Shown one piece after another: positions 6,444 to 41,113 of a stretch of DNA of 64,000 bases. Location: NCBI GenBank assembly GCA_021432605.1, contig MU271143.1:3481277-3545276 (forward strand). The letters run 5' to 3'. Position numbers and translations under genes: made by a program. The notes beneath the pieces were generated by a model that was given only the letters and a program-made list of their open reading frames with translations, ran no database searches and was not told the origin of the DNA. Each line of letters starts with the position of its first letter. Position 1 is the first letter of the stretch. The DNA is from Coniochaeta sp. PMI_546 (lineage: Eukaryota; Ascomycota; Sordariomycetes; Coniochaetales; Coniochaetaceae).

Positions 6444-8258
6444 TCACCGAGCATATCCAAGTGTGAGACCAGCAAATGCTCCTCCCTCATATATCCTCTT
6501 CCTGCTATCACCATCCATATCGAATCTATACACCGCTCCACCCAAATCAGTCGCGTATATATGCCGGCGCCGTGTATCCAGCTTGATGCCAATGGCCTCA
6601 TGCAGGTCGCGTACAATGAGCTCGTAATCCTTGCCTGGCAAGCTAGTAGTGTTTTCCTCAATCGGCGTGACGGCGCTCAGTTTGGCACGGTTGATGCTGT
6701 TTCCAATTGGAAGCTCGCCCCTATCCGTCCAGTAAAGCACACTCTCTTCCTCATCGATGTCCAGGTCGATCGGCTCCGGGAGGTTCTGGAAGAGGATTTC
6801 GATGTCTGTGCGATTCTTGCTGTTCTCACCGGGGAGGAAATCGATGTTGGCGGAGAAGATACGGCCTTTGTTTCCTTTGGATGGTCCCTTCTGGGTCCAG
6901 TAAAACTTGTTGGTCGAGGCAGAGACTGCGACGCCGACACACCATCTCGTTTGGTCGGTCTTTTCCTCCTCTTTTTGCCAGTCGCCGGCTTCAATGAGTA
7001 CCTCCAGCTCAGAACCATCAAAATTGCACCGCCACACCCTGAGGCCCTCACGGTCTCCGAAGTAGAGTTTGGAGTTTCGATGATCAACGGTCAATTGCTT
7101 TGGGGTATGGATGACACCTCGAGGAACAATCTCCTTGACCTCGGTTCCGTCCAAGTTGGAGCTGAATACAGCTCCGTCACTCTTCGACGGTACACCCATA
7201 CTAGTCCAAAAGAGCTTTCCGGCAGATAGTGATACGTCGATACCGTCTGGCAAGCGCTGGTCTGTCACCAGAGCCTGTAAAGGCTTTGCGTCCGGTGAGC
7301 CCACAAGGACACGTCCCGATTGGTAGACTTCCTTGAGATTGGTCGAAGAAAGCCCGATATCCAGCAAGTACAGTTGAGGAGCATCTGTCGTTCGAGGGGT
7401 CAGATGGGGAGGAAGAAGGCCGCCGCTAGGAGACTTATTCCCCAGCTTGCCTTGATCGATATAGCTTTGGAGGAACTTGACCGGCTTGTCGGGAAATCCG
7501 AATTCCGCAATGTAATGCTGCTCAATGAAGGAGACGGTGTCCAAACCGACCTTTTCCATCATGGCTACCGGTCCCGTGGCGCTACCAAACATCTCGTGCC
7601 ATATTTCGTCGATTTCCGTGGGCGTTGAGACGTCATCGGCAAGAATGTTCAGGACCTCGCGCTTGATGGCAGCCCAAAGACGGTTGAAGATAAAGCCAGT
7701 CGACTCTTTGCGAGCGACGTATGGATGCATGCCGATCTCCTGGAGCTTCTCTACTAGAAAAGGAAATATGCTCTCATCCGTGAAGCCGTCGGTCATCAAC
7801 TCAACCATGCGAGCTTGGGGCGGCATGTAGTAGTGCATATTGAGAACGCGGCGCTTTGTGGTTTCCTGCAGCTCACCAAGCATCTCTCGCGACTTGTAAG
7901 AAGATGAGTTGCTGCAGAGAATAGCGTCCTCCGGTGCGTAGTGTTCCAGGTCGGCGAAGGTGGAGATCTTCAGGGACAGTTTTTCTGGAACGGCTTCGAT
8001 GACGAGCCATGCCTTCGCGACGACTTCGGGTAGAGACTGGAGAGCTTCTACTGTGCCGCGCTTCGCGGATTTCGAATATTGCGACATGCTAGTTTGGCAG
8101 TACTGGACAGCGGCAGTCCTTTGCTCCTGGCTCGGGTCACGAATAAGGACATTGTATCCGCTTGCTGCCCACGCGCAGGCAATGCGGCGGCCAAGCACAC
8201 CTCCGCCGAGCACGGCGACAATACGGTTGTCGGTAGGGGGTAGTGTAAAAGAGGCCAT
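6444..8258 (-). CDS. 3-hydroxyacyl-CoA dehydrogenase/YWTD fusion
   Basis: A 604-residue intronless protein. Residues 10-195 form an NAD-binding 3HCDH_N domain: the dinucleotide loop is LGGGVLG (GxGxxG), followed by an Arg-Asp pair at the end of strand 2. NMHYYMPP supplies the expected catalytic His. Residues 200-290 match the C-terminal 3HCDH dimer domain (GFIFNRLWAAIKREVLNIL and a Gly-Pro-rich turn). Residues 305-604 are a different fold: five or six repeats of LDL-receptor class B/YWTD type (FWTSMG, LYFGDREG, FYWTQKG, LYWTDRG, IYATDLGG, each followed by an NLDGT or FDGSE-like turn), forming a beta-propeller. The first half should oxidise a 3-hydroxyacyl-CoA or similar hydroxy acid with NAD+. 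The propeller may bind a ligand or partner. There is no signal peptide and no peroxisomal SKL-type end (it ends GYAR), so a cytosolic location is likely. The substrate is unknown. Confidence 0.85.
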   Translation of the reverse strand: MASFTLPPTDNRIVAVLGGGVLGRRIACAWAASGYNVLIRDPSQEQRTAAVQYCQTSMSQYSKSAKRGTVEALQSLPEVVAKAWLVIEAVPEKLSLKISTFADLEHYAPEDAILCSNSSSYKSREMLGELQETTKRRVLNMHYYMPPQARMVELMTDGFTDESIFPFLVEKLQEIGMHPYVARKESTGFIFNRLWAAIKREVLNILADDVSTPTEIDEIWHEMFGSATGPVAMMEKVGLDTVSFIEQHYIAEFGFPDKPVKFLQSYIDQGKLGNKSPSGGLLPPHLTPRTTDAPQLYLLDIGLSSTNLKEVYQSGRVLVGSPDAKPLQALVTDQRLPDGIDVSLSAGKLFWTSMGVPSKSDGAVFSSNLDGTEVKEIVPRGVIHTPKQLTVDHRNSKLYFGDREGLRVWRCNFDGSELEVLIEAGDWQKEEEKTDQTRWCVGVAVSASTNKFYWTQKGPSKGNKGRIFSANIDFLPGENSKNRTDIEILFQNLPEPIDLDIDEEESVLYWTDRGELPIGNSINRAKLSAVTPIEENTTSLPGKDYELIVRDLHEAIGIKLDTRRRHIYATDLGGAVYRFDMDGDSRKRIYEGGAFAGLTLGYAR

Positions 8259-9328
8259 TATCTAGATAGGCTCTGGCTATCGAAGAAGTGATGTTGATAG
8301 AGATCTCAAGCTTTACAATGGCCTGACGCAAATGAGAGTCCAGTACGATAGCCACTTGGGCCGGCCTGTGTCCGAAGAGCTGCAGCCATGTTATTATAAG
8401 GTACACGTCTACACGTTGAAACACTCGTAGATGATCGATGCTATCAGTGATGCCGGTAGGACGCCGCACGTCATCATCCCGATAGCGGATGACCTTCTCT
8501 TTTGTTCCGCTAGATCCATGATATATGGAGAGGCCGAGGTCCTATCGGCGTCAAGACAAACCGACTCGCGAGCATCATCATCAGATTCCAGATGAGTTTG
8601 AGCTTGCGTGACTTTCACCCATATCAACATCGTCTGAGGCTCCAGATTCTTAACCCGCCGCCACGACAAGCCTCGGCTACCTGATCCACAATCCACGCCG
8701 TCGTTGCTTGAAATGACCGAGCATGACGGAGAATTATCGCAAATTCTTTATGTGAATCGTCATCTGTTCGAGCTTCCAGAGCTTATCAGACGGGACGACC
8801 CGGACAATCCGGAAGTGACAAGGTGTATCACCGCCTGTCAAATTTGCTACTTACGTAGAGTCATGTTAAGTGGAAATTCCAAGGGGTGGTTTGGTGCCGA
8901 GGAGTGGAGAATTCGGAGACTCTTGCCGAGCGCTAGTCAGTTGAGGCTCAGCTTATACCCTGCTCATGGTGAAGAAGGTACTGCTCGTCCCTGACCTTTC
9001 AGTGGGTACCTACGCAGTCAGGGGCAAACACCGGCACGCCAGCACACGCAGACTGCAGCTTGATCACATCTAGTCGCGTGGATGTGACCCATTTGCCAGA
9101 TAGGGATTTTATGATGTTGACCAGAGCAGGAAGAGATCATATGTCAGGTACAGACTGCAGTTGCACAACTTTCAATTATGGAGGAGAATTGAACTTGTCA
9201 AACTATTCTAGTCTAGGGTAATTAACACGTACAAGATAAAGGCATGTATCCAAAGTTCATCTACCAATACACTGCTGTGACAGTTCGGTTGCCCTCTAAA
9301 CTGCATAACAAATCACTGCTTTCTCGCC
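8259..9328. other. Intergenic
   Basis: About 1.1 kb. One plus-strand frame with an ATG at 8713 (93 codons, two Cys in a TACQICYL segment) might be a tiny gene, but it has no recognisable motif or start context and is left uncalled. Otherwise nothing is seen. Confidence 0.35.
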
Positions 9329-15331: not shown

Positions 15332-18300
15332 ATGGTTCAGATGATCCGGACTTCAGCCAACCGGACGGGATGGGCTCGCACCCTCCTTGTTGCATTCTGC
15401 GTGCAGCTGTCTCTGTGGCCCAGTCCTGCTGTCGCTGATCCTGACCATGTGACTGATACGGCAAACTGGCTTCAGCTGCCGGTCTCTTCCATTGACGGCT
15501 TCTTCCCGACGCCATGGGCGTGCGGCGACCCGGCACCGAACCCGCAGAGCATACTGCAATTCCACAGGAACTGGCATTGCACCAACCCTGACCGGGGAAC
15601 AAGCGACTGGGGCCGTCGCTTCTTCGGCTTCCACAGGCAGTTCCTGCAGGGATATGACAGGTATCTCGCGTCGATAGGCGAGGCCTACATCCAGACCTGG
15701 GCCGCCGGACAGGGCGCGCAAATCCCAGTGCAGCACGGCACCCGACCCAAGAACGCGCTTTGCTCGACCTGCTTAGATCTTGATAACAGCTTCAAGGTGC
15801 CCGCCGTCGGGGGAACGCTCAACACGTTCACATCGGTCGCTGACATTGGGGCAGCGATTGTCGGCTGGCACAACTCCAACCACGGACGCATCGCTACCTC
15901 CAGCTGTGCCGGTGCATGTGGCTCCGACACTACCTTGCAGTGCGGCGACATGAATTGTCCCCGGACCTCCCCTCGGGATCCGATCTTCTACCGCTACCAC
16001 CACATCTTTGACGATGTGCAGAACGCTTGGTACACGCTGCAGCCTGTGGACATTGCTATTGTCCTCGATCGCTCAGGCAGCATGTCATCTCCAGCCACGG
16101 CCAACGGCCCCATCAGCAAACTAGACGCTGCCAAAGCCGCCGCCAGTCTGTTTTCCGACTTGCTTGAAGATGGGTCTTCCCACAAAATGGGCATGGTGTC
16201 TTTTTCCACCACGGCAACTGATCCGCCCGATATGCCCCTGACAGACGTCTCAGGGGCTCCTGCAGCTTTGTCGGCGGCATTGGCTGGTGTCCAGGCTGCC
16301 GGGTTAACGAGCATCGGTGATGGGTTGAAGAAAGCCCAGACTCTGATCAGTAGTGGAGCACAGCAGAGGAAGGCCATACTCCTCTTGACGGATGGAATAG
16401 AGAATACTGGCCCATTCATTGCAGATGTCAAGCAGGCTTTGGGTGATACACACGTCTGTTCAGTCGGGTTTGGAGCACCCTGGGACCTGGACGGTGCGAA
16501 GCTGCAAGCACTGAGTGAGAGCCAAGGCGGCATTTACAGCAGTACTGTGAACGATTTGGAACTGAAGAAATTCTTCGTGTTCTGCTTCGCTAACATTTTC
16601 GACACCTTCGTCGGGGAGGACCCCTTTCACACGCTGCCAGCACACGATCTGTCCTCGGCTCCACTAGTCCACCATGCCTTGCTGGATGAGAAGATCACCT
16701 TTGTCTTGAGCTGGAACAGCACGAATCCAGCGGCAAACCTCCGGCTCGCGATCACGACCCCTTCAGGTAGCACCCTCCATTTGGACTCACCAGGAGTGCA
16801 GAGCAAGTTCGGGCCTTCCTGGCACGTGGTGAAGGTGACCAAGTTGCCCGTCTATGGTGAAAGAGACGGCGACTGGACAGCTCGTGCCGTCCGGCCCTTT
16901 GACACATACGTCAATGGCTTCACTTCACGTTCTTTCGCCAACGCATCGCAAGGAGTCAAGTTGGTGCAGAACGAGATCGCTGCGCTCTGTCCGCAGGGGT
17001 GTAATCGAACTCTGTACTACGAGGACTTTTGCGAAAGCGATGAGACTTTTGAGGCAATGACGTCCATCTATGCGTCTGCTGTTTTCGGACAGACCAATCT
17101 GGGCACCATCACCCGCCCAGCTAATGCCACCGCCTTTGCAGAGGCTTTGGACCGCGGTAACTTCGATCTCCTGGTGTACAGCTCCCAATACAACGACACT
17201 GTGCAACCGTACGATGGCGTTCTGACTAGCTTGCTGTGCGGCGGAAGTTTCAAGGCTATCATCAGTGAAGGTCGCAGCGTCAGCAGCGCAGCCTCTATCC
17301 TGCGCTGCGCAGGCGCTGTGAAGAGTGGAGGATATATTAGCGGAAACTACACGGGCAATTTCACGCGCATCTTCCCATCGACATCGCAGCTCTTGGACGG
17401 TCCAGCCACCCTGCAAGCGCCTCTGTCATGCGTCATAAAGTCCTCTTATGGCCTCCAACCTGCCAAGCCGGGCAACTCCTCAATCGAAGCGACCTTTGAC
17501 AACGGGACCCCTGCCGTGATCGCCACCGGAAAGGCAGGGATCGCAGAGGATTACTTCATCACTGTCCTCGCGCGCTCGACGGGATACCTCAAGCCGTTCC
17601 TCTACCGCAATAACAGCTATACCCTCGAGCCGCTTACTCCAACCTTCCACATCCCGTTCACGCACTGGCCCGACTGCGGCTACTCTCGCATCAACGCCAC
17701 CGTGGACGTCACGCGTCCCCTCACGAGCCTCGCCAAGATCCTCTCCCAGTCCCAAAAGTACGCAAACACCACGTCCGGGACCGTCGACCCCGACGCCGGC
17801 CCTCGCGCCCAACTCATCGCCGGTCTCCCCGGCGGCGCCCCTACCATCCCGACCGAGACCACGACCTTCCCGCTGTACGACGACGGCACGCACGGCGACA
17901 CGACGGCGGACGACCACTACTGGAGCATCACCCTGCCGGCCAACTACACCGCCGTCGACGGCGACTACCAGCTGCACGCTCATTTCACCCTGTGCCAGAC
18001 GAGCCCGTGCGGTAAGGAGACGTGCGTGCGCCGCGAGGCGCAGCAGACCATCACAGTCATCACGTCGATCGACAGTGGCGGTACGAAAGTCTCGGTGGTG
18101 GACGTCACGGAGGGGTATGGATCGTCGAAGCGGACGAAGCTGATCAGGATCCGACCGCTTGATGCCAACGGGACGCCTCTAGGTCCAGGCCTAGGGGGCC
18201 ATTTGGTTGTGACTCCCGAGGGCGGTGTGGTGGTTGAGAGTGTGACGGATTATGATCACAAGGGAACATATGAGATCAAGGTTAGCTACGATACGACTGG

Positions 18301-18373
18301 ATATAACAGTCCGGCGGTGACGGTGGGCTTGTATGGGCGTATAACCAAGGGGGTGAGGATTCCCTTAGCCTGA
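15332..18373 (+). CDS. Secreted tyrosinase-like/VWA fusion
   Basis: A 1013-residue intronless protein starting at the ATG in cataaaATGg. Residues 1-35 are a signal peptide (hydrophobic core TLLVAFCVQLSL, cut near AVA-DPD). Residues 70-235 resemble the tyrosinase/haemocyanin di-copper domain: FFGFHRQFL (copper-A helix), GWHNSNH (copper-B HxxxH) and DPIFYRYHH (last copper-B His). The second copper-A His, nine residues before His101, is replaced by Asp92. Residues 240-425 are a von Willebrand A domain with MIDAS residues Asp246-x-Ser-x-Ser and a LLTDG strand. A beta-sandwich follows (about 440-530). Later regions contain a YDDGTHGDTTADDHYWS segment, a motif known from VWA proteins with a choice-of-anchor-type domain. 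Many N-x-S/T sites agree with secretion. There is no clear GPI or membrane end. Role unknown: a wall or extracellular oxidase, an adhesion scaffold, or a metal-binding pseudoenzyme. Confidence 0.82.
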   Translation: MVQMIRTSANRTGWARTLLVAFCVQLSLWPSPAVADPDHVTDTANWLQLPVSSIDGFFPTPWACGDPAPNPQSILQFHRNWHCTNPDRGTSDWGRRFFGFHRQFLQGYDRYLASIGEAYIQTWAAGQGAQIPVQHGTRPKNALCSTCLDLDNSFKVPAVGGTLNTFTSVADIGAAIVGWHNSNHGRIATSSCAGACGSDTTLQCGDMNCPRTSPRDPIFYRYHHIFDDVQNAWYTLQPVDIAIVLDRSGSMSSPATANGPISKLDAAKAAASLFSDLLEDGSSHKMGMVSFSTTATDPPDMPLTDVSGAPAALSAALAGVQAAGLTSIGDGLKKAQTLISSGAQQRKAILLLTDGIENTGPFIADVKQALGDTHVCSVGFGAPWDLDGAKLQALSESQGGIYSSTVNDLELKKFFVFCFANIFDTFVGEDPFHTLPAHDLSSAPLVHHALLDEKITFVLSWNSTNPAANLRLAITTPSGSTLHLDSPGVQSKFGPSWHVVKVTKLPVYGERDGDWTARAVRPFDTYVNGFTSRSFANASQGVKLVQNEIAALCPQGCNRTLYYEDFCESDETFEAMTSIYASAVFGQTNLGTITRPANATAFAEALDRGNFDLLVYSSQYNDTVQPYDGVLTSLLCGGSFKAIISEGRSVSSAASILRCAGAVKSGGYISGNYTGNFTRIFPSTSQLLDGPATLQAPLSCVIKSSYGLQPAKPGNSSIEATFDNGTPAVIATGKAGIAEDYFITVLARSTGYLKPFLYRNNSYTLEPLTPTFHIPFTHWPDCGYSRINATVDVTRPLTSLAKILSQSQKYANTTSGTVDPDAGPRAQLIAGLPGGAPTIPTETTTFPLYDDGTHGDTTADDHYWSITLPANYTAVDGDYQLHAHFTLCQTSPCGKETCVRREAQQTITVITSIDSGGTKVSVVDVTEGYGSSKRTKLIRIRPLDANGTPLGPGLGGHLVVTPEGGVVVESVTDYDHKGTYEIKVSYDTTGYNSPAVTVGLYGRITKGVRIPLA

Positions 18374-18871: not shown

Positions 18872-20056
18872 ATGTATTCGAAGCGACTGTTGTCTGCATT
18901 CGGATTGGCAGCCTTCGTCTCTGCTGCCGAAGCCGGTTCCTGTAACGCCGATAATTGCTTGCGAGGTACGTCAATTCAATTGGAAGAACTCAAAGTACAC
19001 TGAATTGCGACGATCAACATATCGACATCGAAAGCCACAAGTAATATTTATATGAAACTCATTCTCACTCACTCCTCACAGCAATCCGAGCAACCACACG
19101 CCTCGCACAGGCATCCATTGACTGTGCAGCAGTCTTCGACGTCACTGTCACACCCAGCACAGTGTAGGTCTGATCCGAACGAATTTCGTTTCTGATCAGT
19201 GGTGATTGACCTGATTTATAGCACCGTTACCGAGTACTCGACCGTGTCGGAAATCGACACCGTGACGATCCCTACCACTCTTGTCCAGACCGTTCATGAT
19301 ACCCTCACTACCGTGGTGCGCGTCACGTCGACCGTGGAAGCCTCGGAAACCGTGACCATTCAGCCAGCAAAGAGAGCTGTATCGTCCGACGTCCCGGCCT
19401 ATGCCTCCCCATGCTCCGGTGTTGCTCGCTTCTCCACTGCGTGCTCGTGCATCGGCGTCACAGCCAAGACGGTCACTGCTGCCGCTCCTTCAACCACTCT
19501 GACCCTCCCCGCCACAAGCACCATCTTTACAAGCATCATTGAGCCCGTCGAGACCGCCTGCGATGTCTTCGAAGATGCCACAGTCACCGAGTCAACCGTT
19601 GCCGCCACCGTGACGAGCACGGTGCTGACAACAGTGACACCCGTACCCCAGTCCGTCACTGGTGTCCTGCAGTTCACAGCCACCGGACAGTCATACTACG
19701 TCACCCATTACGACTCCAGCGGCATCTCGTACGCCACCGCATCGACCAACGTCGCCGACGCCATCCAAATCACCCTCGACGCGAGCGGCCAGCTCTGGTA
19801 CGGCAGCAAGGTAGCCAAGGGCAACCCCCCAGGAACCTCCACCCTGCAGCTGTTCTTCGTCGACCCGTCGGTGGCGACCACCACCCGCACGCCTCTCACC
19901 TGCTCCAGGGACTCGACCAATGCCCTGACGTGCGGATTCGGCGACCCGACGGTGGACTTTGTCTTCTCGCTCCGGTCGAATAACTTCATTTACGGCGGGA
20001 CGCGGGCCAACTTGCAGGCTGCGGGATATCCGATCATCACTTTGATTCTGACTTAA
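18872..20056 (+). CDS. Secreted Ser/Thr/Val-rich wall protein
   Basis: Three exons: 18872-18965, 19082-19163 and 19222-20056. Introns are 116 and 58 nt. The protein is 336 residues. Residues 1-21 are a signal peptide (ending AAEA). A short Cys-containing segment (SCNADNCLRAI ... DCAAVF) resembles the start of many fungal secreted proteins. Then come long runs of Thr/Val-rich sequence with repeated TVT or TVTEY-like motifs (about residues 48-110 and 145-190), expected to be O-glycosylated and extended. The last 130 residues are a compact domain rich in Gly, Tyr and Ser (FTATGQSYYVTHYDSSG, DASGQLWYG). No GPI-attachment tail is evident. It lies 0.5 kb from the tyrosinase-like gene on the same strand, so both encode secreted surface proteins, though co-regulation is only a guess. 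Confidence 0.8.
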
Positions 20057-25659: not shown

Positions 25660-28600
25660 CTAGACACCACTCCCAAAGACCTCATCCTTTCGCGTCCGCC
25701 GTTCCCAAACCACAACCCCATCACTCTTACGCTTGAAGTACAGAATGCGATGCTGCGGTATGAACTCCTCATCCGTCTGCTCGCTCTTCCACGTATCAAG
25801 CGCCTTCTCACGCGCCCCTACGAACCGATCCTCATACCCAACAATGAAGTCCGCGCTGTCCATGCCCGGGTCCCACCGCAACCGGTTCATCACGTCCGCC
25901 GCAGTGCGGAACTTCTTCCCTGGTTCCAGCTTCGGCACGATGACTGTCTCCACAGTAGTTTTGCCCTTCTTCTTCCTCGCAGCCTGCTCTTCGTCAGCCT
26001 CAACCCCGCCCAGATCTTGCTCCTCTTCCTGCTCCTCATCTTCATCCTCCTCCTCTTCGCCAGCCGTATACTCTCCCCACTCCCTCGTATCAGCCACCAA
26101 CTCCAACTTCGCAATCTCAGCACCCGAGACAACAGACGCACTCATCCAGCAGCTCTTGCTGTCAAAGTACTTCCCGTCGCCCCGGATCTGTTCCTCGAAC
26201 CGTCTCAGCACGCTCTGCAGCGCCCCTAACGCATCGCGCATCTCGTCCTTCCCCAGCTGGACGTCATCCACCCTCCCAAGACCGACGAGGTAGCATCCTT
26301 GATAATCACGTGGGCCTGCTCCATCCACTTCCTCCACTTCAGCAGCGGAAACACCCTCGACGAACCTCGCAGGCCATATCCGCGCATGCAGCACACCCGC
26401 CAAGCGCCGATCAATGTCAACTAGCACATTGACGAACCTTGACTCCAGCCACCCGACGAACTGCGCTCCTTTAGAGAGCGATAAGCCCCAGTACTGCAGG
26501 TCGATCTTGACATAGCTCTTATACATGCCAAGAAAGTCCTTTGCGCCGGCGCTTGCGAGACTGTCGGAGAGCTTGGGAGTGGGCTCATCACCAGGACCGG
26601 AAAGGAAAGCGGTCCAGCTCATTCCACTGGTATCCAGGAGCCGGGCAGCGCGCTCAAACTCCTGTGCTATGGTACGTACAGACGGCAACGATGCTGCCTG
26701 GCTGGTGTTGAGGACGGGGGGGAAGTAGCCAAGTATGGCGAGCGGCTCGCGGGAGGTGCGGGTGTAGTTCAGCCGCTGTTTGTGGAAGAAAGGGTCGAAG
26801 ACGAGCTTGGTCTTCCAGTCGAAAGTGGCGTAGTGGCGGAAGAATGCTAGGAGGATCTCGGGCACGGATACGGATGGGTTGTCACGGGCGAGGAGCTTGT
26901 GCACCCGGACGAGCAGTATGGATATCTGGATCCCGCCCAGGTATCCGAATCTGGCGGAGAAGATGCCGCGGGACTTGGCCCAGGTCTTGATGTAGCGGTA
27001 GGCGACTCGGAACTTGGCGATGTCGGGCATGGATCGCCGCACGTAGTCGAGGTCGCGAATGGCTTTTAGCTTGGAAAGGGTCTGCATTGGCAGCGTCCAC
27101 ACAACGTCTGTAGGCGGAGCCCGAAGAACCTGCGGCCAGTTCTCAGCAATGTACGTTGCTGGGCAGTATTGCAGGTCCATCTTGATGCCTTGGACCTCAA
27201 GTTCCAGCATGGTGCCGGAGTTGGCTTTTACTCTTCGCAAAATTCTGATAGTTTCGTCCGCGCCTTGCCTTAGCCGCTGGGTGGCTAGAGCGAAGAAGGT
27301 TTTCGAGCTGAAGGGACCGATGCACAGAACGTCAATGTCGGAGGAGGAGGTCCATACCCCTAGTCCGTAGGAACCAACTGGAATGATTATGACAGGTGAT
27401 CGCGATTTGTGATAGGAAGTGGAGGAACTGGATCGTGTGTCAGTGTCGAGGAGAACCTTCTTCAGGAGATCGAGGGCCGACTGTCGCTTCTGGACACCCT
27501 CGTGCGATGGAAGAACCCCGAGCTCCTCCAGACAATCCTTGACCGATGTCGGGTCTGAAAGGCTGTCCGGTGCTGTGTAGGGTTGAACAGGAACAACCAG
27601 CTTGGCAATCTCATCCGAGGTCTTCTCCGGCTCCTGCGATCCTGTTCTCAGTACACATCTAACCCCCCAGTGGTCACTGGCATAAGTAGGTTCCGCATCT
27701 GGATCATCGCCAATTCTGCTTTTGAGAAAGCCGAACTTGTTGAACTTTGCGATCGACAACGCACCCTCGCCGCGGACCAGTATCCGGTCATATCTCTGTG
27801 GCCGCATATTGAACCCACTACCCACAATATTTGCCGCAACTTCGTTCGCAAGTGGATCGTAGGTCGCGCCTTGCTCTCCCTCAACGAGTTCCTCTGCCGC
27901 ATCTTGTTCGGTATCTGAAGCCTCTCCGAGTTTGAAGCGAGACGTCTTCCAGGCATCCGCTAGCTTTGCTTCCTCAAATATTCTGTCGAAGCTCTCGAGG
28001 TAGCTGGCGCTTTGAGCGGAGAGACAGCCCTTCTTTATAGCGGCGTTGATCGAGAAAGAGGAAGTGGAGATATTGAAGTCGCCTGCCAGAACCCATGGGG
28101 GCTCGTCGTAGTTTCGAGATAAGTAACCCAGGATATTCTGGATGTCAACCTTCTTGGCAGTCACCGCTCCATCGGTAAGACCACAGTTGAGATGAACAGC
28201 AGCAACTACAGTCGGCAGGAAACGACCGTTGTCGGATTTCCCAATGTCCTCGAACTTGGCGACAACGGCACCCTTGTGCTTGCGGCTGAAGGGTACCCAT
28301 TCCCAGTTGAAAGCCCATTTGCTTAAGACGACGATATTCAACAAGCTTGGAAGCGGCTCAATGTCAGATTGTTCCGGAGGCCCGTGAGAGGTAAAAGGAT
28401 AAAGGTCACGAATATGCTCGTCTCGGAGGAGGTAGGATAGAAAGTCGTCCGTGACTTCCTGCAGGACGAGGATGTCGGCAACTGCCTGACGTGATAGGAT
28501 ATTCTTGACAACCAAGGAATACCGCGCTCGTGACGGAGGCCAATCGAATTCCCCGAGGACATTGTAGCTTGACACCGCAAGACTCTGGGGTATGTCTTCT

Positions 28601-29367
28601 CGATCTGCGGAAGAGTCCCGGTGTGGCAGCCACAGTAACATTTCGTCGTCAAAGTAATATGAACACCGGCTCTGCAAGGGATCCTTTTTGGGTACGTCGT
28701 CTTCTTCGGTGGGCGCCATGCGATACCTCGCGACCTCGCTCTCACCATAACAATCCTTTGGTGTGTCGTATCGAGTAAGCAACCCGGTCGCCAAACTTAA
28801 TGTGCCCCATACTCTCATCCGGCTCGTTGCCTTGCCGCCCATATGCAGCTGTTCCCTCTCGAGGATATGTAGCTCCTCCACCTCCCATTCTACCTTCGGC
28901 AGCAAGCCGACTTTGTGTTGTAAGAACTTGTGCGTGCTGGAAGTGATATCCTCACTCTGTGCCACAGTCATGTGCATTCGATACGCACTTTCTCGCTGTC
29001 CTAGTGCCTTCAAGATATTGCTTCGCAGGCCATTGAGTCGAGAAATACGTTCTTCGTCGCTATCATGAATAAAAATGGTGTTGTCATGCTTGTGAGGAAA
29101 TACGTCCACCGCATCCAGTGAAACTCGAAGCGGAGGCTCACCGGCTTCGGCTCGAAGTTCAAGAGCAGCTTGGATGATTTCTGCCGCTCGTGGAAGAGAA
29201 TCAGGGGAAACAAAGGGGTAAATCAAGTTGATGTGCGGTGGCCATTTCTCAAATGCCTTGTCGTAGAGCGCCCTGATGCGGTCAAGTGAAGGCCAGAGAC
29301 GCCTTGGAGGTACGAGGCACAACGCTGTATGATGAGAACCACCGTTCATGGTCTCGGCAGTAGCCAT
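25660..29367 (-). CDS. 2H/EEP/nucleotidyltransferase/MJ1316 fusion
   Basis: A 1235-residue intronless protein combining four RNA-related modules. (1) Residues 12-195: 2H phosphoesterase, with His motifs PHINLIYPF (His45) and RMHMTVAQ (His132). (2) Residues 262-575: endonuclease/exonuclease/phosphatase domain with SYNVLG (Asn269), VLQEV (Glu304), GDFNIS (Asp430, Asn432), YDRIL and SDHWGV (Asp565, His566). (3) Residues 625-980: poly(A)-polymerase-like nucleotidyltransferase with VGSYGLG and SSDIDVL (Asp677, Asp679) and third Asp731 (KMDLQY), so its catalytic triad is complete. (4) Residues 1150-1235: MJ1316/DUF504 domain (RTAADVMNRLRWDPGMDSADFI ending VWERRTRKDEVFG form), linked to recognition of cyclic RNA ends. 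An acidic, low-complexity linker lies before the last module. Such a set could open 2',3'-cyclic ends, trim and re-tail RNA. Substrate and compartment are unknown: no targeting signal is seen. Confidence 0.88.
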   Translation of the reverse strand: MATAETMNGGSHHTALCLVPPRRLWPSLDRIRALYDKAFEKWPPHINLIYPFVSPDSLPRAAEIIQAALELRAEAGEPPLRVSLDAVDVFPHKHDNTIFIHDSDEERISRLNGLRSNILKALGQRESAYRMHMTVAQSEDITSSTHKFLQHKVGLLPKVEWEVEELHILEREQLHMGGKATSRMRVWGTLSLATGLLTRYDTPKDCYGESEVARYRMAPTEEDDVPKKDPLQSRCSYYFDDEMLLWLPHRDSSADREDIPQSLAVSSYNVLGEFDWPPSRARYSLVVKNILSRQAVADILVLQEVTDDFLSYLLRDEHIRDLYPFTSHGPPEQSDIEPLPSLLNIVVLSKWAFNWEWVPFSRKHKGAVVAKFEDIGKSDNGRFLPTVVAAVHLNCGLTDGAVTAKKVDIQNILGYLSRNYDEPPWVLAGDFNISTSSFSINAAIKKGCLSAQSASYLESFDRIFEEAKLADAWKTSRFKLGEASDTEQDAAEELVEGEQGATYDPLANEVAANIVGSGFNMRPQRYDRILVRGEGALSIAKFNKFGFLKSRIGDDPDAEPTYASDHWGVRCVLRTGSQEPEKTSDEIAKLVVPVQPYTAPDSLSDPTSVKDCLEELGVLPSHEGVQKRQSALDLLKKVLLDTDTRSSSSTSYHKSRSPVIIIPVGSYGLGVWTSSSDIDVLCIGPFSSKTFFALATQRLRQGADETIRILRRVKANSGTMLELEVQGIKMDLQYCPATYIAENWPQVLRAPPTDVVWTLPMQTLSKLKAIRDLDYVRRSMPDIAKFRVAYRYIKTWAKSRGIFSARFGYLGGIQISILLVRVHKLLARDNPSVSVPEILLAFFRHYATFDWKTKLVFDPFFHKQRLNYTRTSREPLAILGYFPPVLNTSQAASLPSVRTIAQEFERAARLLDTSGMSWTAFLSGPGDEPTPKLSDSLASAGAKDFLGMYKSYVKIDLQYWGLSLSKGAQFVGWLESRFVNVLVDIDRRLAGVLHARIWPARFVEGVSAAEVEEVDGAGPRDYQGCYLVGLGRVDDVQLGKDEMRDALGALQSVLRRFEEQIRGDGKYFDSKSCWMSASVVSGAEIAKLELVADTREWGEYTAGEEEEDEDEEQEEEQDLGGVEADEEQAARKKKGKTTVETVIVPKLEPGKKFRTAADVMNRLRWDPGMDSADFIVGYEDRFVGAREKALDTWKSEQTDEEFIPQHRILYFKRKSDGVVVWERRTRKDEVFGSGV

Positions 29368-30439
29368 GACCGAGAGACTTTGCTGTTCCTCTTACTTGAC
29401 TTATATCACGGTACCTTGTAGTAAGGTTGGTATAATTGTGGTCCCAGCAAAAGGGGGAGAGGTTGAAGTTAATGCTATTTGGACAATCGGGTATGGTGGC
29501 CTAGTATTGCTTAAAATCGGTATTCGCACGCCGAATTCACCGGAGTGATGGCAAACAAGAGCCATCACTATATAGAGAGAAGCCTACCAAAATGCATCAT
29601 GTAAACTCAACGGGCAATGCTCAGCATGTGATGGTCTTGTCTATGGGATGGATGACTCTTCAATCCTATCATTAGGCTTAGACTTAAGTCTAGACTTGGT
29701 GCGTGCATCGGCCTGAGTCACCAAATTCGAATCACTAAACGCCCCGCCAAGTACTACAGTGACTGCCAGTGAGCCTTGTGGCGGGGCACATCTACCAGAC
29801 AAGGGGATCCAACCGCATTTACCACTGCGTATAGACTTAGCCTTGGCCGTGGTTAGTCACAGGAAGCCTCAGGACAAATCTGTGGATTTTGCTCAATAGA
29901 AGTGTTTTGATCAATGTTACTGCAGGCAGCCAAACCAGCTGTAGGAATCTGAGGCAACCTATGGCATTGTCACCTTGTCCAGAAACCTGGTCGAGGCCCT
30001 ACCGAGCGCTGCATACGTGAAACCCGCGTCACTTTCCCCATGAACGGCCGGTCCCAGGAAGAATTATTTGGACAGGGTCATCATACAGCCTTCTTTTTGA
30101 TGTGATAGCCGCTGTTCACTGCTCAGAAGCCGATGCTTCTGCTGCATAAAGCCGATGAGAATGGAAAGAAGATGGGCTCCTCGTGTTAGACTTACTGAAC
30201 CCCCATCAGCGACAAGTTTCCGCGTAGATTCCAAGCATGCTGATGCAAACTAGTTGTGGCTTGATTAAAGGAGAAACTTCCCTGGGACTCTACAATGTCC
30301 CAAAGACTTGGCTCATATCATTCGCAAGAGCTTGCCTGTAGCGCATCTTTCGACATGCGTGGACATGCCGCGCTCTCAAACCCAGCACGGCGGGCACCGT
30401 TTTACTTCAACAAATAGCTGACGGGACAAGGGAGATAAT
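29368..30439. other. Intergenic
   Basis: About 1.1 kb upstream of the RNA-processing gene and downstream of the HAD gene. Apart from the short hairpin at 29544-29569 nothing is recognised. Confidence 0.4.
29544..29569. repeat. Perfect 9-bp inverted repeat (hairpin)
   Basis: AGTGATGGC and GCCATCACT face each other across an 8-nt loop (aaacaaga), followed at once by a TATATAG stretch. It could be a dyad binding site for a regulator of the minus-strand gene 180 bp away, or chance. Confidence 0.5.
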
Positions 30440-34992: not shown

Positions 34993-36573
34993 GGTGTGTG
35001 TTGTTGGTATGTTTACTAGACGAATAGAGAGTAGAACGACGGGACGATGGCTTCCGTAGCAGAAGTTGTCTGAAGCGAGGCGAAGTCTGCGCGGAGGCAG
35101 ACAAGAAGGTTTCAGGACAAGTGAGGTATGCAAAGGTGTGAGGATAAGTGTGAATATGATGAGTTGAAGTGGCGTCTAGAGGCCCAAGCCGATTATATAT
35201 AGGTAATGCGGATGCCAATTGTAAGATGCAGTTTACAAAGAAACCAGAGCAGAGAAAGAGTTGGATGTAGAAAGAGCTCAGGAGAGAAGTAGATGCACTT
35301 GCTCAAAGAAGCCGCATCTAACACCGGATGACTCAACGATTGCCGGCTGACACTAATAAGTGATGCGCCACACTAACAACGAAATATGATAAAAGAGTCT
35401 GGGAGATGCGAGAAGATTCGCCACAAAGAAGATTGTTATATGTCAGCGAAGTTCCTTTCTTGCTTATTGTTTGTTTGTTTGTGTTGGTTGTTGAGAAGAA
35501 GAGTTGCCAGGAACAGCGCGAGAGGCAGGCGCGACTGGGACTGTATATAGGTCGGGGCGAAACGGGTTCGATAGCTTGGATGGCCTCCCAACATTCAGTG
35601 CGACTGCCTTATCTTGACGTTTTGGGGATGCCGGATGACCGACGATAAAGCTTGGGGGGTGGCTGCTAGCGTGGGCCTTGGGGCGTGTGTGTTTCAGCGG
35701 CATGTGGGTTGAGCCTGCCTACCTGTAAGCTCCATCCAGCCACGTGCGGTGCCTTCGTGATGCAATGTAATGAAAGCGAGACGCCCAGAAGTCACCTTGC
35801 ACTAGAACTGCCCGAGGAGTGACTTGCCGGGACCCGAGGGTATTCGCTGCGCCATTCCAGGACGCATCATTGATACCATGCCGCAGGCAGCGCCTGATCG
35901 ATGACCACACCTCAGCTCTCCATGATTATCGTCCAGTTGAGCTGTCTCTGCTTACCGTCACCGCGGATGTCAGACTAGGAATTAGAGGTAATGACCTAGG
36001 AGATGAAATCAGACGCCATCAGCAAGTTCCTAGGGCTTTGGCAGGGGCCGCATCAAGTTCGTTCCTGTTTTTGTTATGACGCATCCCATTACCTTAGGCA
36101 TAGATAGTACTGTGTAGGCACATGGATGACGGATAGGCTTTGAAACGCGGAACAAAGAACCAACAAAGGACATACACTGGCCAGGTCGGGGGCCTGTAGC
36201 CTTGGTTCTCAGCGCCGCGTGCCATCATCGGCTCAATGCCATTTGCTGACTTCCAGACAGCCGCCCTGCTGTGTGCCGACTGTCGTCACGCATGGAAATG
36301 CATTGCCGTGGAGTGGAAGACGGAAGTTGGCAGTTTGAACCTGACAGGGTGCAGGTAACAATAGAACCTGACCCGGATGATTGAAAACTGGGCTTCCTCC
36401 ACCCCGCAGCTTCCGCTTCGTAGTGTTGGACAATCGCGTGTTATGGATTCAATGTCTCGGACCATCTCAGGTACAACCTAGAACCTCTGAGCTACAACAG
36501 TAAGATAGGTACCTTGAAGGTTACTCGGGAAGGGATTGATTAGGTATGTACAATGGCAACCACCTATGCCAGC
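34993..36573. other. Long upstream region
   Basis: About 1.6 kb upstream of the minus-strand gene. It holds the TATA motif at 35192-35202 and a second TATATA near 35540, plus a CAAA-rich run on the minus strand around 35470 resembling a fungal 5' leader. No gene is supported. The right end abuts a hAT-type element. Confidence 0.4.
35192..35202 (-). promoter_or_regulatory. TATA box, unknown gene
   Basis: The minus strand reads CTATATATAAT here, about 200 nt before ATG 34992, a suitable distance for a leader of ordinary length. Confidence 0.45.
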
Positions 36574-36581
36574 CACGTATT
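36574..36581. repeat. Left 8-bp target-site duplication
   Basis: CACGTATT, identical to the copy at 37393-37400 on the other side of the hAT-type element. Confidence 0.85.
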
Positions 36582-37392
36582 CAGGGTTGTTAATTAGTAA
36601 CTATTAGTATAGTATCGACCTTTACTAATACTAACTAGTATAGTATCGACCCTTACTAATACTAGTCTAGTATAGTAAGACCATTTACTAATACTACCCT
36701 AGTATATTAATAGTAACTAATTAGTTACTAATTAATATTAAAATGTTACGTAATTAAATAATTAAATAATAAAATAATAATAAAAAATATATAAGAAATA
36801 AGTAAAAAATAAAGAAAAATAAAGAAAAGTTATTAATAATCTCGATCAATTTTAATAATTATATACATTTTTTATATAACTTAAAAATAATAGAAATAGG
36901 TAAAAACTTATTAAACTTCTTAGAAATTTCTTATAATTTAATTTGTAATTAATAAACTTACGAGAATATTTAATTATAATATTATTAATATTAATTATAA
37001 AAGAAAGTATTAATAATTCAAGTGATTTTCTCGTAATATATAAATATATTAATATTTTATAAATAATAAATATATATAATTCTAATATTAAAACCTGTTT
37101 TTTATTTTGATTTAAAATCTATTATTAAATATATTATATTTAAACTATTTATAATATTCTTTATTTTATTATACTATTAATATTTAATATTTTAAAAAGA
37201 TATAAATATATATTATATAATATTTAATATTAATTAGTAACTATTAGTTACTAGTTAGTATACTAAATTAATATTAGTATAGTATTAAGTATTACTAATA
37301 CTAGACTAGTATGAAAAAATCGTTACTATAGTTACTATACTATTAGTTACTAATACTAATACTAAATACTAGTACTAATTTTAACAACCCTG
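36582..37392. mobile_element. Non-autonomous hAT-type transposon (MITE-like)
   Basis: An 811-bp element, strikingly AT-rich against GC-rich flanks. Its ends are perfect 12-bp inverted repeats, CAGGGTTGTTAA, and similarity continues inwards as TTAGTA-rich subterminal sequence on both sides. It is flanked by an exact 8-bp direct repeat CACGTATT (36574-36581 and 37393-37400). An 8-bp target duplication with ends beginning CAGGG is the signature of the hAT superfamily. Inside, the left end has tandem copies of a roughly 35-bp unit (TAGTATAGTATCGACC..TTACTAATACTA). No open frame of note, so it cannot encode its own transposase and would need one in trans. The very low GC of the interior may reflect repeat-induced point mutation or original composition. 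Perfect ends and target repeats suggest a fairly recent insertion. Confidence 0.88.
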
Positions 37393-37400
37393 CACGTATT
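37393..37400. repeat. Right 8-bp target-site duplication
   Basis: CACGTATT, identical to the copy at 36574-36581. Confidence 0.85.
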
Positions 37401-38213
37401 ACCTGCTGACTCGCCTCGGTTGCGGGCATCCAACAACCAAGGGGCGTGTCCTGAGCCAGTGCCGGCCAAGAGTCATTCTCCCCACGCCTTCCGCCATCCC
37501 TGGCTTCCGCTTTTAGATGGAGGTGCATGCAGCGCTACAGAATGCGAGATTCAGTGGCCCCTCCCGGCTTATTATCTCAACCTCCTATGGGAGTCGCAAT
37601 CTGACTCTCTCCCTGGCCTCGCAACTTGTGCCTGAATTATGCCGAGTAGGTTGCAAACGAGCCTACAGCTAACTCAGGAACCATTACTGTAGCAATCTCC
37701 AGGCTGGCTGAGCAATGATGGAGGGGTAAGGTGGCTATCGCGATAAGACCGTGATAAGGCGTTATCTTCAGCTGTAAGGTAAGGTAACATCCCCGAGTTC
37801 CGACCGGGAGGTCAGCTTGCTGACAGCAAGTAAAATGGCCCCCGTTATTCGTACCGTCTTGTGTCACAAGAACCTATGACCTGTGAACCTGACTCGGAAC
37901 CTGGAAAGACGCGATACGTGCTAATAATTGTAACAATTGTCATCACGTTTCAGGTGATCCTAGTTCCTGTTCCATGGTCTAACTTCGTCTTCATTTCCCT
38001 GATATCCATCTATGTAGACCTGAATCTTCGAACCATTCATGTGAAATGACAGCTTGCGGCATAGGTAAAGAATAGCTCAAACTCCCAAACTCCAGAATGC
38101 AGATGTCCCACCATCCATTCATGGCATTCCCTCAGTCACACAAACCAGCAAGGCCGTAGTGAGCTTGCCTTCATCCAGTGTCAACATAATCCACTCCTTC
38201 AGTCCCAAAACGC
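37401..38213. other. Intergenic
   Basis: About 0.8 kb between the transposon and the 3' end of the quinate-repressor-like gene. A 62-codon frame near 37861-38049 has one hydrophobic helix but no start context or homology that I can recognise, and is not called. Confidence 0.4.
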
Positions 38214-40714
38214 TCAGAAAGCCGACGACGCGTCCCGCTGCTGCTGCTCCCAAGTCTTCCTGCACACCTGGGTCATCAGCGTCTTCGGCGCCGGCCGGCC
38301 AGTCATCAGCTCAAACGCCTCGATGGCCATCTCGCTGACCAGATCGAGCCCGTCGACAACAACCCACGACGGCGACACCGTGTCGCGGAAGGCCTGCATT
38401 TGCGCCACTAGCGGCGTGACGAGCGGTTCGTAGGCGAGCTATTATCCGTCAGCACATATCGCATCAGTTAATGGTGTACTAGAAAGGGCACAGAACGTAC
38501 CTCAACAACAACACCCCCAGTAGGACTCCGCAACCACTGCAGCGGCATCTCGAAATCCGCCGGCGGGCTGCCGTCGGCACTCGTAGCAGGGACACAGCTG
38601 ATAACCATCGTAGGCGGGGCATACTTCTCCGGCCACGGCTGTGCGGTGGAGGAGATGACGTGACACAGTTGGTGCCGCCCGTCCACGGACCCATTCGTCT
38701 CCCCGGACGTGATCCCCTGCCCAGCAGCCCACTGGGTAAAGTGCGTTGCCACATCAACCGCGTTCGCCACGGTGCGGTTGTAGATGAAGATATTCCTGCA
38801 GCCCAGCTGCACGAGCGCGTAGATCGCTGCGCGCGCCATGCCGCCCGCGCCGACAACCAAGGCGGTGGTGCGGGACGGTTGCACGCTGTTGCGTGGACTG
38901 ACGGCGCGCTGGAGACAGGTGTGTATGGCGCGCCAGTCGGTGTTGTCGCCGTAGAACTCGGCTGCGGGACCGGCCTTGTGGCGACTGTTTGCGTGGTCGA
39001 GGATGAAATTGGTGGTGCCTCTGAGGGGTAGCACGACGTTCACTGCGCCAATGACGGAGGCGTGGTGCGACTTGATCTTGAGGTGCGGCATGATGGCTAC
39101 CTTGAAGGGGGCTGTCAGGTTGGCGCCGCCGAATGTTGGCTCGGTGCATATGGCGTTTAGTTCGTCCAGGGTCGTGCAAGTGGCGGGCTGGTAAGTGTGC
39201 GGCATGCCGGAGAAATCGTAGGCGGCGTGGTGCATTGTAGGGGACAGGGAGTAGGACACATTTGCGCCGACGACGTAGAACTGAAGCGGGTCGAGGATGA
39301 AGGAGCGGAATAGGTTCATGAAAGCGCTCGGATAGGTGCTAACCGTGGCTAGGTGGTCGCGCTCGTTCTCTGTGTCGGGGTGCTTGACCGGGTTGAGAAT
39401 GCGGGATTGGAGAGGTAGACGGACACCCAAGACGGAGTAGTCGTAGCCCACGAAGGGAGGCTTGGGGTCTGGGATCGTGGCGTTGAGTTTGTTCTTGAAT
39501 TCCTCGAGTTTCTCCGGCGGACTGTCGGCCGTGCAGAAGCGGGCCATTCGGACGATGTCGCACCCAAGCGCCTGCGCGCGGCGGTAATGCTCCATCGTGC
39601 GCTCGTCGTTCCAGTGGATGGCGCCGAAGCCGGTGAAGGTGAAGTTGCCGATTATCTTGGTCCGGCCTTTGTGGGCAAGGACGAAGTCGGACATATCTGG
39701 CGGTCGCAGGAGGTCTAGGCTGAGATAGTCTACGCCGAGGCGCAGACCGATGTTCAGGAGCTCCATGTCCATTGTCTCTTTCTCCTCGACTGACCTTCGC
39801 CTCTCCCCTCGTGGATTTTCCTCGACGTGGTAGATGATAGGGACCCGTAATTTTCGACGTATCAGTGCTACTTGTGTTGCGACTATGTTTAGTAAGTCCT
39901 TCGGCCAGGTGTCAATGATCAACTCGACGCAGTCAGCTCGCGCCTCGAAATCTTCCCACTCGAGATTCATATCCAGAACATATGATAGCCGTAATCTGAG
40001 TGCGTACGAGTATGACCTGTATTCTGGCGGAATGGCGCTGACGGAAAAGGGGCTCTCGAGCCATGTCCGCGTGACGCCTTTGCCGGTTATGAGATCCAGA
40101 AACCTAGTAAAATCTTCTCTGGCACTCAGCAGCTTAGAGGAACGACTGGATGGTTGATATTCCGATGGAGTTGCTGATCCTGATATGGGATCCTGGCGGC
40201 CACCCGATGAGTCGTAGAGATTAAAGTACTCCAGATTTGAGCAATCCCTGTGACTCTTATCCATCTCCAAGAGCTGCTCTGCCTCGTTACTATCGAGCTG
40301 CTGCCGGATCCATTTCTCTTCCCTGTGCACATAGACTACGGGATTCGTCTTGGAGAATTTCCGCAGGGCGTCCTGGGCCTCTTTGGTCAGGCTGGTCATA
40401 CCACATTCAATTATGCATTTGGTCCTGTTGCTGTCCAGCATTTCCTTGAAGACCTCGATGATCCGACGAGCAAAGGCTTCCTTGCCGTGCCTGCTGAGGA
40501 ACTTGCCGCGGGTAAGACCAGTGACCTTCTCAAAGTAGTGATCCTCCGTGACCAACTTTCTCCTCAGGTGCAATGCGCCCATGAACCCCAGCGAGCGTTT
40601 CCCAGCACCGCGGCATCCGACCAGGACTATCGACGCAGAAGGCTCAAAAAGCATCTCATTCTTAGGTGGCTTGACGTCTGCCCCGTACGGCACCGAGGCC
40701 GGGGCGAAATCCAT
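38214..40714 (-). CDS. Quinate-repressor-like (QutR/qa-1S)
   Basis: Two exons, 40714-38501 and 38438-38214, flanking a 62-nt intron (GTACGT..ATAG); 812 residues. The layout equals the last three domains of AROM, as in the repressors QutR (Aspergillus) and qa-1S (Neurospora). Residues 24-215 are shikimate-kinase-like, with P-loop GCRGAGKRS. Residues 235-455 are type I dehydroquinase-like, but the Schiff-base Lys position reads DIVRMARF (Arg) and the usual SxHDF motif is changed (GNFTFTGF), so catalysis is unlikely. Residues 485-812 are shikimate-dehydrogenase-like, with SYSLSPTMHH, NLTAPFK, GDNTDW, GAGGMARAA and NRT kept. The dead dehydroquinase suits a regulator that senses a shikimate-pathway ligand and binds the activator. 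A Zn2Cys6 gene lies divergent. The N-terminus is uncertain: upstream DNA has a second coding-like frame. Confidence 0.85.
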
Positions 40715-41113
40715 CGTAGGCCGGCGTCCGGGCGTTCGACGCAAAAAGGCGGGCCAGTGATTCTCCGGAGTCCCCAATCTTCAGCTTCACCTGCGGGGTT
40801 GACGGCGTTGGAGTGAGAGTGAGAGCCTCATTTGTGACTTGATGAACAAATACGTCTTGTTGTTGGCTGGAGTTCAGTCGTGTTGCCTCAGAAAATGAAC
40901 TTGATATGGTCGTCGTAAATGTGGTTCATGGATCAACAGTTTGTCTCGTGTCTTGTCTTGACCGGCAGATGATTCGGCGTGGTTACTCGGGAAAATCGTA
41001 GACCCATTTGCAGCTGCCGTAACAGCGGGCGAATGTGCGGAGAGATCTCCAACAAATTCCTGGGTCAGTCAAGTTCTAGGCCCACATTTGCCTTAATCGG
41101 ACGACAGTCCATT

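Follow-up and report, generated by a model that had tools for sequence, protein, structure and literature searches.

Type-3 copper sites bind dioxygen, and many of the proteins built on them oxidize phenols. The blood pigments and prophenoloxidases of arthropods are held to derive from a copper protein that originated in the line comprising animals, fungi, and amoebae. Von Willebrand factor A (VWA) domains bind their ligands through a metal ion. In a 2013 survey, only alpha-type proteins are reported among the copper proteins of the bacterial genomes examined, and the beta-subclass (arthropod-type) proteins are described as lacking a signal peptide (PMC3658974). Oxidases carrying a VWA domain have been reported as LodA-like quinoproteins of two actinobacteria (PMC4417212). 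We found no description of a hemocyanin-like copper-VWA protein among open-licence papers on tyrosinase-VWA proteins of fungi or Acidobacteria, short tyrosinases, gene transfer, trypsin-like-VWA fusions, bacterial CLCA homologues, fungal hemocyanin, or bacterial relatives of arthropod hemocyanin. Here, we describe such a candidate in the fungus Coniochaeta sp. PMI_546, encoded at 15332-18373 (+) of a 64,000-nucleotide window (contig MU271143.1, assembly GCA_021432605.1, positions 3,481,277 to 3,545,276). The gene is a single open frame of 1013 codons with no internal stop, at exactly the coordinates given in a preliminary description, which had read it as a secreted tyrosinase-like domain fused to a VWA domain.

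Our homologue searches covered prokaryotic genomes, plasmids, and viral contigs, as well as the PDB. When the profile A6 was run against 103 Acidobacteriota genomes, a single genome (G1340, which shares its phylum with G007, a Thermoanaerobaculia genome that carries locus L025) gave two matches, both inside one 1187-codon open frame. The encoded homologue (L151:3735-7286, 1183 aa; hereafter L151) aligned with the fungal protein in one piece across residues 67-984, with 31% identity over 1016 columns (385 bits, E 3e-120). Identity was 37% in the copper region, 46% in the VWA domain, 29% in the first beta module, 34% in an inserted domain, 24% in the second beta module, 46% in the anchor region, and 33% at the C-terminus, and all seven regions outscored every one of 300 shuffles. 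Like the fungal protein, L151 has a signal-peptide-like start, a short copper core, VWA, beta 1, insert, beta 2, and anchor-X segment in the same order, and it keeps the six copper histidines and the five residues of the metal-ion-dependent adhesion site (MIDAS). It differs in having longer copper-core loops, extra VWA residues, and ~145 more residues at the C-terminus. Its neighborhood is bacterial, with a sigma-70 factor, a TrmO-like frame, and a frame of the carboxymuconolactone-decarboxylase family upstream.

The preliminary description had named an artefactual joining of two genes as one finding that would overturn it. We rejected this option, which is very unlikely because L151 encodes a colinear homologue with the same domain order in a single frame. 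On the L151 contig, a 537-aa frame (7323-8936, +) begins 36 bases downstream of the homologue and has no Pfam match at E<=1; it is a possible operon partner.

The copper core was characterized with an alignment, A7, of nine rows (the fungal domain and eight bacterial ones, leaving out the locus L148, which lacks the histidines of the second copper site, CuB). The six putative ligands (H78, H82, H101, H180, H184, and H223) are retained in 9/9 rows and in L151. Pfam Tyrosinase (PF00264) matched residues 173-234 of the full protein at E 3e-5 and 24.9 bits, above the curated cut-off of 22.6, with its best stretch confined to the CuB half; the N-terminal domain alone gave E 2.9e-7. The tyrosinase/hemocyanin-like di-copper domain previously placed at residues 70-235 is thus supported, and its limits agree with both Pfam and the alignment. 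In type-3 copper proteins, each site has a Phe four positions upstream of its last His, and an Asp lies four positions beyond the last CuB His (PMC3658974); F97, F219, and D227 have this spacing, as counted on the sequence contexts. The histidines of the first site (CuA) follow the pattern H-x3-H...H rather than H(n)-H(8)-H. The protein therefore bears the shifted second CuA His that marks the beta subclass, its H-x3-H pairing with the CuA site of prophenoloxidase. It departs from the published beta-subclass description in having a hydrophobic N-terminus with an AVA-D site, as judged from hydropathy only.

Profile searches of the PDB pointed in the same direction. With A7, the first match was shrimp prophenoloxidase b (3wky, E 4.1e-9), followed by hemocyanins and one mosquito protein, which we take to be a prophenoloxidase, at ~1e-6 to 1e-5, and by tyrosinases at ~1.5e-3; the arthropod chains aligned over both copper sites. 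The matches include the long multi-domain hemocyanin chains 3j32, 6r83, 8trz, and 4yd9, presumably molluscan and hence alpha-type. With the eight bacterial rows alone, 3wky again led (E 1.7e-7), the best mushroom polyphenol oxidase reached 0.004, and bacterial tyrosinases came no better than 0.016. An earlier, smaller profile, A5, gave a less clear ranking (a multi-domain hemocyanin first at 5.6e-5, then a mosquito chain at 9e-5, tyrosinases 0.0045 and worse). A control profile made from four bacterial tyrosinases of VWA proteins gave E ~1e-47 to 1e-55 for bacterial tyrosinases of solved structure and values as low as 4e-133 for multi-domain hemocyanins, and no arthropod chain of the A7 search was present among the best 60 of its 62 PDB matches. 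When the short copper core was compared with tyrosinases profile to profile, only 29 columns aligned, at the last CuB helix. An ordinary alpha-type tyrosinase was rejected on the strength of these searches, namely the lead of 3wky over the tyrosinases, the behavior of the control profile, and the 29-column overlap. By profile, the copper domain lies nearer to arthropod prophenoloxidase and hemocyanin than to tyrosinases, which refines its earlier label.

A single-sequence search with the copper domain in 199 Planctomycetota found one genome, G729, with four matches (E 1.2e-7 to 4e-4); a profile search raised this to eight places and found none in the other 11 genomes searched of the same class. 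A profile of five of these bacterial domains alone scored the fungal protein at 40.2 bits, whereas none of 2000 shuffles scored above 3.7, a score for the protein that confirms likeness and is not an independent discovery, since the fungal query had found those five rows. The three G729 proteins that were scanned fall below the Pfam Tyrosinase cut-off, and L151 lies above it at 23.9 bits. One G729 paralogue, L148 (C174:5652-6113), is a short copper domain without the CuB histidines and possibly a pseudo-enzyme; the same contig has a copy with all six. A planctomycete protein, L134:1-2832, carries two short copper domains followed by a proprotein-convertase P-domain. Elsewhere, the single-sequence search of genome contigs found no prokaryotic relative, the copper domain alone gave one chance match at E 6 in plasmids, and viral contigs gave nothing by single sequence or by profile. 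Weak single-sequence matches at E<=0.1 occurred in 31/282 Myxococcota genomes (best E 0.0017) and 38/396 Actinomycetota genomes (best E 0.0011). Most were short or contained stops, the longest (L089) shows no copper pattern, and we took those remaining to be chance matches. Profile A6 found 0/100 in Myxococcota, an empty answer that by itself shows nothing, and L151 used as query had no match in plasmids.

The remainder of the protein belongs to a chassis that is found more widely in prokaryotes. Pfam recognizes VWA_2 at residues 242-355 (E 9e-12) and VWA at 240-410 (E 2e-11), and the MIDAS is complete (DxSxS, T, D), in agreement with the VWA domain and the limits (240-425) first proposed. An AlphaFold2 model from 14 rows was confident for the VWA and beta modules, and Foldseek confirmed the VWA fold. 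By tblastn, three plasmid records matched: those of Microvirga and Haloarcula encode tyrosinase-VWA proteins, and that of Caballeronia encodes a VWA protein with a carboxypeptidase (M14) domain. An alignment of the VWA regions was also run against a single genome from each prokaryote species, and the best 80 of 235 confirmed loci were kept. Four of these (L004, L005, L006, and L021) match the fungal VWA and beta 1 at 37-41% identity and have a trypsin-like domain at the position of the fungal copper core; L004 and L006 also match residues 738-1003, L005 stops at a contig end, and L021 seems to leave frame.

N-terminal domains were scanned in 24 of the 80 loci (the four trypsin loci and 20 picked by rank and a long N-terminal part). 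An enzyme domain was present in 21 and absent from three; the enzymes were LodA-like (five, one cut by a contig end), trypsin (four), tyrosinase (four), M64 (three), subtilase (two), and M14, M10, and M43 (one each). In the planctomycete protein L125, the chassis that follows an alpha-type tyrosinase shares 33% identity with that of the fungus (E 7.5e-36). The union of a copper oxidase with a VWA domain had been called unusual. This is not supported for prokaryotes, where tyrosinases sit on related chassis in four of the 24 loci, in the Microvirga and Haloarcula plasmid proteins, and in L125, and where N-terminal enzymes in 21/24 loci make enzyme-VWA fusion no strange thing. The chassis is a modular extracellular frame and, as its relatives have proteases, LodA-like quinoproteins, or ordinary tyrosinases in the corresponding N-terminal position, it appears to serve generally for docking. 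Its distribution is patchy. At E<=1e-15 it was found in at least 4 of 246 Planctomycetota genomes, one of them via the inserted domain only, and in the families of Mangrovicoccus and Nocardia in the seed genome only (at least 1/198 and 1/201), these counts being lower bounds because at most 4-5 candidates per genome were scored. The LodA-like-VWA fusions (L015, L019, L020, L022, and L029) come from Bacteroidetes, Sinosporangium, Kribbella, Aquabacterium, and Deltaproteobacteria, a wider spread than the two actinobacteria given in PMC4417212.

Two elements, the inserted domain at residues ~528-735 and the full-length bacterial homologue, are additions to the anatomy first drawn for this gene. 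The insert has no Pfam name and is not present in the four trypsin-VWA proteins; stretches 31-40% identical to it occur in the planctomycete proteins L126 and L131. In L126, Pfam matches that stay under their cut-offs point to an alpha/beta-hydrolase-like N-terminus and to EF-hand/dockerin-like parts; L131, which resembles it by eye, has no Pfam match at E<=0.001. The anchor-type beta module of the preliminary description is supported by NCBIfam choice_anch_X at residues 846-883 (E 4.5e-4), with a score of 19.9 bits that lies under the cut-off of 25. The predicted signal peptide fits a hydrophobic stretch at ~17-29 followed by AVA-DP, again on hydropathy.

The build shared with L151 points to a passage of the gene between bacteria and fungi. 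In a tree of the VWA and beta 1 regions (26 rows), the fungal row joined L151 with support of 85/82, and both sat with the trypsin group and L125. In bacteria, the modules also occur separately: the copper core at the eight places in G729, the insert in the genomes G780 and G719, and the VWA plus beta frame in the four trypsin-VWA proteins. A transfer had been suspected earlier from the lack of introns. That suspicion is now supported by the full-length colinear homologue in L151 and draws no support from the missing introns; intron lack and GC are uninformative as signs of transfer, and the codon use of the gene resembles that of other frames in the window (the comparison set being plain open frames, which may hold introns). 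Transfer from bacteria to the fungus is the likely, if unproven, direction. The fungus would have acquired a secreted-type mosaic gene of bacterial build and retained it long enough to match host codon use. As an explanation of the whole, we favor, with reasonable though not high confidence, a bacterial-build mosaic acquired by the fungus, in which a phenol-oxidizing copper core is docked by VWA and beta modules.

In this proposal, the copper core would bind two copper ions and dioxygen and would oxidize phenolic groups, with tyrosyl residues in extracellular proteins, or else polyphenols, as the likeliest targets. The VWA domain, through metal-dependent docking, and the beta modules would keep the enzyme on a polymer substrate or a cell surface. 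Since the same chassis bears proteases, lysine-oxidase-like enzymes, and tyrosinases, analogy suggests extracellular proteins as a common substrate class. Phenol oxidation by the core is somewhat better than an even prospect. A core that binds oxygen or copper without oxidizing phenols, as a hemocyanin-like carrier, a sensor, or a copper store in what would chiefly be an adhesin, is a less likely alternative that we still take seriously; hemocyanins stand beside prophenoloxidase among the top profile matches, the core is small, and the planctomycete paralogue L148 has lost its CuB ligands. This alternative fits less well with the enzymes borne by related chassis in 21/24 scanned loci, four of them canonical tyrosinases, and with the six ligands kept throughout A7 once the degenerate L148 is left out.

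Two further histories would account for the gene differently. It could have arisen long ago in eukaryotes or fungi and come down through fungi by vertical descent, Acidobacteriota having received their copy from a fungus, and the fungal side of our comparison does consist of this one gene. We consider this improbable given that the copper core, insert, and chassis occur in different bacterial phyla and in different combinations, and that L151 sits in a bacterial neighborhood. The Pfam label of the domain, Tyrosinase, would suit an ordinary secreted fungal tyrosinase that gained an unrelated VWA tail by chance fusion or by annotation. This is hardly credible, however, when L151 shows the same whole architecture, when the family profile reaches 3wky at E 4e-9 and tyrosinases at ~1e-3, and when the control tyrosinase profile, at ~1e-50 on bacterial tyrosinases, has no arthropod chain among its best 60 of 62 matches.

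Several observations weigh against acquisition of a hemocyanin-like phenol oxidase from bacteria. L151 is the sole full-length bacterial homologue found, in one of 103 genomes sampled. Its joining to the fungal row has moderate support and its branch is long, and over the tree columns the trypsin protein L004 has the highest raw identity to the fungal row (43%). Vertical descent in fungi, or transfer from fungus to bacteria, would also be compatible with searches made on the prokaryote side. Multi-domain hemocyanin chains rank second with A7; in the two with alignments shown, the score adds up from eight weak matches. Models of the copper core are poor: in the AlphaFold2 model, residues 1-231 and almost the whole insert have a pLDDT (predicted local distance difference test) score <50, and the core modeled alone from a single sequence has a mean pLDDT of 33.9, with four helices bearing the six His at a confidence too low to prove anything. 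Because of these low-confidence models, the di-copper site is argued from sequence alone. Some members of the copper-core family may be inactive, as the loss of CuB ligands in L148 indicates, and the activity, the substrate, and the VWA ligand are all putative.

Features of the copper-VWA gene (positions in the window; residue numbers of the encoded protein)
Feature	Position	Strand	Basis
Whole open reading frame	15332..18373	+	Start codon ATG at 15332; sense codons through 18370, then the stop codon to 18373; 1013 aa; intronless; L151 homologue colinear in one piece
Probable signal peptide, residues 1-35	15332..15436	+	Hydropathy only: hydrophobic core ~17-29, then AVA-DP
Short type-3 di-copper domain (predicted), residues 60-238	15509..16045	+	Pfam Tyrosinase; bacterial-only profile; alignment A7
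Putative CuA ligands H78 and H82 (H-x3-H)	15563..15577	+	9/9 A7 rows; aligned with shrimp prophenoloxidase CuA (one of two alignments weak)
Putative CuA ligand H101 (FGFHRQF; Phe four upstream)	15632..15634	+	Sequence context; alignment A7
Putative CuB ligands H180 and H184 (WHNSNH)	15869..15883	+	Sequence context; alignment A7
Putative CuB ligand H223 (DPIFYRYH-x3-D)	15998..16000	+	Pairs with H271 of L151; H224 pairs with Lys
VWA domain, residues 239-425	16046..16606	+	Pfam; AlphaFold2 pLDDT mostly 77-94; Foldseek VWA matches
MIDAS DxSxS: D246, S248, S250	16067..16081	+	All five MIDAS residues conserved in L151
Further MIDAS residues T326; D354	16307-16309; 16391-16393	+	Conserved in L151
Beta-sandwich 1, residues 426-527	16607..16912	+	Colinear with trypsin-VWA proteins and L151
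Inserted domain, residues ~528-735	16913..17536	+	Shared with L151 (34% identity) and planctomycete L126 and L131; the four trypsin-VWA relatives lack it
Beta module 2, residues 736-840	17537..17851	+	Trypsin-VWA comparison, model, L151 alignment
Choice-of-anchor-X-like segment, residues 846-883 (YDDGTHGDTTADDHYWS)	17867..17980	+	NCBIfam NF041940, below cut-off; region 841-915 46% identical in L151
C-terminal beta module, residues 916-1013	18077..18370	+	Model and L151 alignment

Other parts of the window were noted in passing. The next gene downstream (18872-20056, +) encodes, by eye, a secreted threonine-rich protein of fungal type with TVTE-like repeats and has an apparent intron. At 25660-29391 (-), four domains lie in one frame, namely 2'-5' RNA ligase-like, endonuclease/phosphatase-like, poly(A)-polymerase-type nucleotidyltransferase, and MJ1316 RNA-end recognition; the product may be a fusion for RNA end repair. 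The G+C content falls to 0.37 at 36001-38000, compared to ~0.53 around it, which we read as an AT-rich island or an old repeat-mutated element. A quinate-repressor-like frame at 38468-40780 (-) matches AROM polypeptides, which are of fungal origin, an example of the fungal gene content of the window.

If confirmed, a small bacterial beta-like core would offer a testable outgroup for the history of arthropod copper proteins and a compact core to study. The gene itself would give a clear example of an entire mosaic enzyme common to bacteria and a fungus, and the chassis represents a natural kit for pairing docking domains with many enzymes. A wider and more tentative idea, which we think unlikely, is that bacteria hold an undescribed family of small secreted arthropod-hemocyanin-like di-copper domains that has served as a pool for eukaryotes. 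The fungal gene would then be one example, and the beta-type core would not have arisen in the line comprising animals, fungi, and amoebae but would either predate it or have entered it from outside.

Among known systems, the animal chloride channel regulators (CLCA) have the order enzyme-like domain, VWA, and beta domains, with an N-domain of the HExxH metalloprotease type. The NCBIfam hCaCC model matches the fungal VWA (E 1e-8), and the CLCA1 VWA (6pyo) is among the Foldseek matches; unlike the CLCA N-domain, fungal residues 1-245 have no HExxH and no His-Glu pair. LodA-like-VWA proteins also combine an oxidase and a VWA in one chain, but the oxidase is of the lysine-oxidase family, and the chassis of the loci found here is more distant. 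The trypsin-VWA proteins are alike in VWA and beta 1, with colinear C-terminal modules in L004 and L006, and differ in carrying a serine protease instead of the copper core and in lacking the insert. The tyrosinase-VWA proteins (Microvirga WP_099514959.1, Haloarcula QIO24726.1, and L125, in which just ~67 residues separate the Pfam limits of the tyrosinase and the VWA) resemble the fungal protein in that a type-3 copper domain precedes a related VWA chassis. Their copper domain is canonical, however, with an H-x8-H CuA as read from the sequence, and the matched stretches are 25-33% identical to the fungal protein. The copper core itself is most like that of 3wky, the best PDB profile match, and 4yzw, with which it shares CuA H-x3-H...H, CuB HNxxH, and DPxFYRxH-x3-D; it differs from both in its ~170 residues without flanking hemocyanin domains, its signal-peptide-like start, and its fusion to a VWA domain. 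What is new here is the fungal copy, the small hemocyanin-like core, and the inserted domain, the fusion of an enzyme to a VWA domain being already bacterial.

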